Below are positions 8,387 to 27,157 of a stretch of DNA of 31,331 bases, piece after piece. The position numbers and the translations under genes are program-made. How positions within the stretch are numbered: the stretch's first letter is position 1; each line of letters starts with the position of its first letter. Location: the IMG/VR virus record IMGVR_UViG_3300043436_001304, positions 1-31,331 of that record; one strand, given 5' to 3'. Under the pieces are notes generated by a model. The model was not told where the DNA came from. It worked only from the letters and a program-made list of their open reading frames with translations, and made no database searches. This DNA comes from a virus.

Positions 8387-8452
8387 AAAAAATTCTATAA
8401 AAACTGTTTGAAACGTCTCGGGCTTGAGACGTCGTCCAATATAGTTTATTAT
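8373..8452 (+). promoter_or_regulatory. Two candidate promoters for the small-protein cassette
   Basis: TTGATG (8373-8378), 17 bp, TATAAA (8396-8401) would start transcription near 8408, just before a stem-loop. TTGAGA (8424-8429), 17 bp, TATTAT (8447-8452) would start it near 8459. Both are embedded in the inverted repeats at 8390-8474. Which one is used cannot be decided from sequence. Confidence 0.5.
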
Positions 8453-8474
8453 ATTGTAAGTTTTTATAGAATTT
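8390..8474. repeat. 85-nt three-armed inverted-repeat element
   Basis: Perfect 16-bp outer arms (8390-8405 and 8459-8474) enclose two hairpins. The first pairs ACGTCTC (8413-8419) with GAGACGT (8426-8432). The second pairs CAATATA (8437-8443) with TATATTG (8450-8456). Each inner stem is 7 bp with a 6-nt loop flanked by a possible G-T pair. The element would form a cruciform in DNA or a three-way junction in RNA. It fills the gap before the small-protein cassette and overlaps both candidate promoters there. Confidence 0.8.
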
Positions 8475-8495
8475 AATTAACAAAGAGGTGAAATT

Positions 8496-8783
8496 ATGGC
8501 AGAAAAAGACCCACGTCTCGAAAGAGCTGGAGTAGAAGGTTTTAACAAACCTAAACGTACGCCTAAACACCCTACTAAGTCGCACATCGTTGTGGCTAAA
8601 GAGGGTAGTAAGATAAAGACTATTCGCTTTGGTGAACAAGGTGCTGAAACCGCAGGTGCGCCAAAAGCTGGCGAATCTGATAGAATGAAAGCTAAGCGTA
8701 AAAGCTTTAAAGCTCGACACGCTAGAAACATAGCTAAAGGAAAAATGTCTGCTGCTTATTGGGCTGATAAAGTGAAGTGGTAG
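8496..8783 (+). CDS. Small basic phage protein, DUF6321-like (95 aa)
   Basis: The sequence closely fits a family I recall as DUF6321, widespread in marine phages: an NKPKRTPKHPTKSH motif (about 17-30), an IKTIRFGEQGAET strand (about 40-52), then KAKRKSFKARHARNIAKGK and a terminal SAAYWADKVKW. It is rich in Lys, Arg and His, so nucleic-acid contact is plausible, but the function is unknown. The ribosome binding site AGAGGTGA lies at 8483-8490. It is the first gene of a compact cassette of tiny basic proteins and follows the structured element. Motif match is good; family name is from memory. Confidence 0.75.
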   Translation: MAEKDPRLERAGVEGFNKPKRTPKHPTKSHIVVAKEGSKIKTIRFGEQGAETAGAPKAGESDRMKAKRKSFKARHARNIAKGKMSAAYWADKVKW

Positions 8784-10016: not shown

Positions 10017-10079
10017 ATGAAATATATTAACTCTGATGTTCGTTATTTCGTCCAATGCCAAGGTGGACTAAATGAATAA
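10017..10079 (+). CDS. 20-aa upstream (leader) peptide
   Basis: A 20-codon ORF with a good GGAGTG site and an ATG eight bases later. It is placed directly after the three-hairpin leader and overlaps the start of the 305-aa gene by eight bases. Its last codons supply the AAGGTGG site (10060-10066) of that gene, so ribosomes finishing the peptide would feed the downstream start. It has no obvious run of a single amino acid. A regulatory role in coupled translation is inferred from the arrangement. Confidence 0.5.
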   Translation: MKYINSDVRYFVQCQGGLNE

Positions 10080-26056: not shown

Positions 26057-27157
26057 TTAAGCAATCCAATTTAATTGTACTAAGTTTAAATCAGCATCTA
26101 AATCAGCTAAAGTAGATGAGGAGTTAACAGGATAAATATCATTAGCAAGAACAATATATAAACCTTCAGCTAAATCATTATAAATTTCTTCGTATTCTGC
26201 AACTGTAAAGTTTTCAAATCTCCAAGAGTCTTCTGCAGTTGGTAATCCAACGCCTCCATTAGTTGCGTCTAAAATTGTAATTTCTCCACCAGGAAATTCA
26301 TCATTATAAAAAGCATCAAGAGTTTGATAAACAGAAGTTGTAAGACCTTTCATTGCTGAAGTAATTACTGTTTCAGATAAACCAACTTGGTCAACGTCAA
26401 CACCAATCATCTTAGCACCGGCTTCTTCTGCTTCTTTAGCAACAGAGAAAGCCACCGCTCCACCTGCTACAAAGATTACTTCTGTACCCAATTGATACAT
26501 AGTTTCAGCTTTCGCTGCGTTTTCTGTAGTTGCGGCGAAATCACCAGTATAATGGTAATCAATAATAATTTGTTCAGTTAATCCTAAATCAACTGCTGCG
26601 GCTTCTGCACCTTGAGCAAATCCAATACCAAATCGGACAACTGCAGGAACTGCCATACCACCCATAAATCCTAGTTTTCTATAACCATCTGCAACTGCAG
26701 CATAACCTGCTAACCAACCAGATTCTTCTTCCGCATAAAGGATAGAAGCAACATTGTCTTCTAATCTAAATTCAGGTCCGTTTGGTCCTCCCCAGTTTCC
26801 GTCATTAGGAACTCCATCTAATAAAATAAATTTAGTATCTGGATATTCATCTTGAGCAAAAAAGATTGGAGTCTCAAATAAGAACCCAGGAGTAACTACA
26901 ATATCTGCTCCGTTATCAATTGCCATTCCTATTGTTGATATATATTCGTCTGCGTTTACTTCTAATGGTTTATAGTATGAGTAAGTTTTATCAAATTCTT
27001 CTGCAAATTCAACTACACCTTCCCAAGAGCCTTGATTAAAAGACCCGTCGTCAATGTCGCCTACGTCTGTAACTAATGCGATTTCATATGTTTCTTGTGT
27101 GGCGCATGCCGCTAAAAGTAGAGGCAAGGCTAATAATGGTAATAATTTTTTATTCAT
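26057..27157 (-). CDS. BMP/PnrA-family nucleoside-binding lipoprotein (366 aa)
   Basis: The N-terminus MNKKLLPLLALPLLLAAC is a lipoprotein signal with a LAAC lipobox (Cys18 lipidated), so the product should be anchored outside the cell membrane. The mature part matches BMP-type binding proteins of nucleoside ABC transporters: DVGDIDDGSFNQGSWEG (31-47), ADIVVTPGF, GWLAGYAA, FMGGMAVPAVVRFGIGF and IGVDVDQ. These proteins capture purine or other nucleosides. No permease or ATPase is visible, so it would have to use host transporter parts. It follows the PstS-like gene by 19 bases with an AAGGAGG site and is probably its operon partner. I recall no characterised phage example. Confidence 0.85.
   Translation of the reverse strand: MNKKLLPLLALPLLLAACATQETYEIALVTDVGDIDDGSFNQGSWEGVVEFAEEFDKTYSYYKPLEVNADEYISTIGMAIDNGADIVVTPGFLFETPIFFAQDEYPDTKFILLDGVPNDGNWGGPNGPEFRLEDNVASILYAEEESGWLAGYAAVADGYRKLGFMGGMAVPAVVRFGIGFAQGAEAAAVDLGLTEQIIIDYHYTGDFAATTENAAKAETMYQLGTEVIFVAGGAVAFSVAKEAEEAGAKMIGVDVDQVGLSETVITSAMKGLTTSVYQTLDAFYNDEFPGGEITILDATNGGVGLPTAEDSWRFENFTVAEYEEIYNDLAEGLYIVLANDIYPVNSSSTLADLDADLNLVQLNWIA

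Follow-up and report, generated by a model that had tools for sequence, protein, structure and literature searches.

What is a perfectly paired, three-armed element doing between two phage genes that are read in the same direction? The stretch of DNA analysed here, hereafter the window, is a virus record of 31,331 nucleotides (IMG/VR record IMGVR_UViG_3300043436_001304), and the element occupies a 109-nt gap between two co-directional + strand phage genes, where a closing stem of 16 bp encloses two hairpins (Table 1). The stem starts 3 nt past the stop codon of the upstream gene and ends 9 nt ahead of a strong Shine-Dalgarno sequence. Virion-type genes lie to the left of the element, one of them encoding collagen-like repeats, and small genes lie to the right; the + strand cluster ends at a facing pair of terminator-like sites near 11.05 kb. 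The original prediction offered a cruciform-controlled promoter, a recognition site for a phage protein, or a structured RNA. Our analysis favors the structured RNA and speaks against the cruciform promoter; no evidence was found for a protein recognition site.

Table 1. Coordinates of the element, its flanking genes, and the small ORF of the second leader
Feature	Position	Strand	Sequence or description	In the relative (G001)
Upstream gene, 229 aa	7697..8386	+	No family match
Three-armed element	8390..8474	+	85 nt
Closing stem, left arm	8390..8405	+	AAATTCTATAAAAACT	Same letters
Junction strand 1	8406..8413	+	GTTTGAAA	Same letters
Hairpin 1, 6-bp core	8414..8431	+	7 to 8 bp counting flanking A-T and G-T	Sequence variable, pairs kept in + strand RNA
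Junction strand 2	8432..8436	+	TCGTC	CTGTC
Hairpin 2	8437..8456	+	CAATATA-GTTTAT-TATATTG	Same letters
Closing stem, right arm	8459..8474	+	AGTTTTTATAGAATTT	Same letters
Shine-Dalgarno	8484..8490	+	AGAGGTG, 5 nt 5' of ATG at 8496
Downstream gene, 95 aa	8496..8783	+	phrog_7595 (unknown function); common in environmental phage contigs
20-aa ORF	10017..10079	+	MKYINSDVRYFVQCQGGLNE	Conserved

The Element Is Not Expected by Chance

The two arms of the closing stem pair with 0 mismatches, as had been claimed. In the window the two hairpins are built to the same plan, each with a 7-bp stem, a 6-nt loop, and a possible G-T pair at the loop; hairpin 1 (8413 through 8432) reads ACGTCTC-GGGCTT-GAGACGT. 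The original prediction held that such regularity is unlikely to arise by chance in a short gap. Dinucleotide shuffling, 200 times for the whole window and 2000 times for the local 1.6 kb, never produced an inverted repeat of 16 bp without mismatch at a distance of up to 100 nt; when the 109-nt gap itself was shuffled 5000 times, a 12-bp inverted repeat appeared in 10 versions. The three-armed element is real. RNA folding gives z-scores against shuffles of -3.7 for the + strand and -7.2 for the - strand.

Hairpin 1 Changes Fast and Can Still Pair in One Relative

Only one relative came to light. This 36-kb viral contig (G001) is mostly 83 to 88% identical to the window wherever the two share sequence. 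Its minimum-energy + strand structure is the same three-armed fold. Both arms of the closing stem and hairpin 2 are unchanged, as is most of the junction; they say little about structure, because the flanks are equally unchanged. At hairpin 1, 12 of 21 columns differ, compared with about 4 of the ~320 that surround it in the 340-nt interval from 8220 through 8560. Further downstream, the window and G001 have diverged strongly in the later part of the 95-aa gene. Directly 3' of this gene, G001 has what is probably an endonuclease gene of HNH type (by reading; L083:6070-6705), which the window lacks.

The stem of hairpin 1, CGTCTC/GAGACG in the window, has become CGGATT/AGTCTG in G001. Although 8 of its 12 stem bases differ, 6 of 6 pairs are kept: one is constant, two are retained as G-U and U-G, and three are altered on both sides. 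Random substitutions of the same number left every pair intact in 0.12% of trials (0.0012); when the G001 letters were permuted, six pairs formed in register in 1.5% (0.015) and a 6-bp stem formed anywhere in the 17 nt in 7.7%, giving p of ~0.001 to 0.08, depending on the null, for what is a single comparison. The matched design of the two hairpins is a property of the window only, as hairpin 1 of G001 has at most 6 bp and a 5-nt loop. Arms that drift without compensating changes, the pattern that would speak against a paired element, were not seen in this one relative; the outer arms show no drift, and hairpin 1 drifts with its pairs kept.

The G-U wobbles of hairpin 1 in G001 are possible in + strand RNA only, and the hairpin is lost on the - strand and in predicted DNA folds. 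These wobble pairs point to RNA of the + strand, and the pattern of hairpin 1 modestly supports a structure in that RNA over a cruciform. In G001 the hairpin is weak in + strand RNA (pair probability ~0.29, with competing folds), and at 15 °C a different fold is predicted in its place. Comparably dense change is found in the upstream gene (14 differences in the 40 positions from 8180 through 8219), so local bursts of change are not unique to the element.

The same wobble pairs count against a site that acts as double- or single-stranded DNA, whether a cruciform, an operator, or a packaging or resolvase site. As DNA, hairpin 1 of G001 would contain two G-T or A-C mismatches. A perfect inverted repeat also functions at the DNA level, and the phage encodes a RuvC-like resolvase; the element, however, is present in one copy only and does not lie at a skew minimum or a gene-orientation switch. 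We regard a DNA-level site as unlikely.

Two further ideas about hairpin 1 were discarded. The GAAAC that opens it and the GUC that follows prompted consideration of a hammerhead ribozyme, for which the CUGANGA strand is absent (by reading). Its right strand can pair with ACGTCTCG in the next gene (8513 through 8520), a pairing that is not kept in G001.

A Second Leader Shows the Same Pattern

The next long gap of the gene cluster, 1.5 kb downstream of the element, holds a second leader (9903 through 10071). Its promoter, TTGATT-17-TATAAT, is kept in G001. Next comes a hairpin that is perfect in both phages, with stem strands ATAAGGGAA and TTCCCTTAT around the loop in the window and GTAGGGAA and TTCCCTAC in G001. 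Ahead of a 20-codon ORF (Table 1) stand a Shine-Dalgarno site and what may be two additional hairpins. Three Watson-Crick pairs of the perfect hairpin have changed on both sides (permutation p 0.0015), and the combination of fast change and kept pairs is clearer here than in the element. That both long + strand leaders carry quick-changing, paired hairpins fits structure, rather than sequence, as what matters. The pairing of frozen flanks with fast-changing but paired hairpins, seen in two leaders of one phage, could guide the finding of such elements elsewhere.

The pattern could also be read as that of an undescribed phage RNA element with a fixed stem and hairpin, in which the fast-changing, still-paired third arm is a strain-specific tag; we think this highly improbable, and give no better odds to the accompanying idea that the arm serves a phage protein or evades a host RNA-targeting factor.

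Promoter-Like Sites Are Not Conserved within the Element

Promoter-like hexamers overlap the element, and it might serve to start transcription of the downstream genes, the inverted repeat being either regulatory or incidental; the second leader does carry a conserved promoter. The best-scoring pair, TTGAGA-17-TATTAT, spans the two hairpins and loses its -35 in G001, where it reads TTAGTC. The pair in the left arm has a -10 (TATAAA) that ends in A and a -35 (TTGATG) that decays to TTAATG in G001, and it would initiate inside the element, leaving the left arm out of the RNA. Promoter-like sites abound in the AT-rich sequence here, with 36 found versus 23 expected. The cruciform-controlled promoter of the original prediction is therefore not upheld, and a promoter for the downstream genes has, in our judgment, little chance of being the explanation of the element.

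Nor is the element among the terminator-like sites of a scan for intrinsic terminators (a GC-rich hairpin with a T run immediately after it). Elsewhere in the operon, TTGACA-18-TATACT (7353 through 7382; 11/12, with TG ahead of the -10) lies within a small gene and is kept in G001; it may be an internal promoter serving the part of the operon in which the element lies.

The Element Appears Confined to a Narrow Phage Group

Rfam gave no credible match to the element at gathering or loose E-value thresholds, and a tRNA/tmRNA search gave none. The 80 genes most closely related to the 95-aa gene lack the element in their upstream regions, so it does not travel with this gene. Pattern searches with the junction motif, hairpin 2, and the left arm returned G001 only, plus chance matches without the element's fold; a covariance model run on 160 genomes of the zrk7 order and on 22 records recovered the two known copies and no others. 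The exact arms have no copy in the genome collection, and neither the window nor G001 contains a second copy. Contigs that are 98.7 to 99.98% identical in the DNA polymerase region do not extend to the element. As no further copies were found, the element seems confined to a narrow phage group, within the collections searched.

These searches bear on two alternatives. The first is a functionless remnant at a module boundary, derived from the terminal inverted repeats of a mobile element or from a recombination joint. Divergence does jump inside the downstream gene, and the HNH endonuclease gene of G001 comes just after it; against this stand the lack of a second copy in either phage or in the 160 genomes of the possible host's order, the absence of any visible target duplication, and a gap that spares the stop codon and the Shine-Dalgarno site. 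We find a remnant improbable. A miniature mobile element, expected in several copies at different places, was likewise not found, each phage having a single copy.

The second is a cis-regulatory RNA whose junction would recognize a small molecule, or a protein of phage or host origin, and would govern translation of the 95-aa gene or read-through into it. The element forms a predicted three-way junction and sits at a ribosome site, and the unpaired GTTTGAAA and the GTC of the second junction strand are the same in both phages. The Rfam result and the restriction to two phages count against it, as does the predicted fold of a 125-nt stretch, in which the Shine-Dalgarno is unpaired and outside the stem and for which no alternative fold hiding it was predicted. 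Binding at the junction is doubtful on these grounds, and control of the 95-aa gene equally so.

A Probable Role in Late mRNA and a Possible Host

The explanation that we favor, at a probability of about 0.5, is that the element is an intercistronic structure on the + strand (late) mRNA that separates and stabilizes segments of the message. A strong predicted RNA fold between co-directional genes is what such a structure would present, and the element shows one. Were the gap transcribed with its neighbors, the late mRNA would be cut near or in it, either through RNase III acting on the stem or through RNase Y-like cleavage alongside. The structure would shield one or both of the new ends from exonucleases, 3' on the upstream message and 5' on the downstream one, and the 95-aa gene and the small genes that follow would thereby be expressed at a level of their own. 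It may also hold the sequence that leads to the next ribosome site out of other pairings. On this view hairpin 1 would serve as a structural arm, and its exact letters would be of little consequence.

The only match in the genome collection to the Bmp-type lipoprotein of the phage is on a Mycoplasmatota (zrk7) chromosome (53% identity), a weak hint, from one gene, that the host belongs to the zrk7 lineage. Genes for RNase III and for two RNase J-like proteins are present in this lineage. Intergenic stem-loops in Firmicutes, a group that has no RNase E, steer endonuclease cleavage and shield the resulting ends (PMC10311766), and 5' stem-loops with a Shine-Dalgarno site stabilize mRNA (PMC7509114). 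An intercistronic stabilizing structure is favored because stem-loops of Firmicutes act in this way and the possible host has the enzymes. If this is true, the element is a compact case of a phage with a low-GC host, possibly of the Mycoplasmatota, tuning the gene levels of one late operon through RNA structure.

Two transporter-type substrate-binding protein genes (Bmp and PBP-like) lie at 26057 through 28181 of the phage genome. Two contigs with 98.7% identity elsewhere lose their match to the window at 26060, where the Bmp gene ends, as would follow from the exchange of a cassette. Nearby, an inverted repeat, AGACTTTTTTC...GAAAAAAGTCT (25976 through 26050), flanks a minus-strand promoter-like TAGACT-17-TATAAT and is a possible operator.

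Comparison with Known Systems

The RNase III sites between the early genes of T7 are long hairpins with internal loops. Like them, the element places a long intercistronic stem in a phage operon; unlike them, it is a predicted three-helix junction. It also resembles cip-cel of Ruminiclostridium cellulolyticum and cggR-gapA of Bacillus subtilis, in which a stem-loop between co-transcribed genes, near a cut, guards the processed ends (PMC10311766); cleavage has been shown for these, whereas the element is a predicted three-way junction with an AU-rich 16-bp stem. The stabilizers of the aprE leader and of SP82 phage mRNA in B. subtilis act at the 5' end of the transcript, unlike our intercistronic element, and share with it a structure placed 5' of a strong Shine-Dalgarno (PMC7509114).
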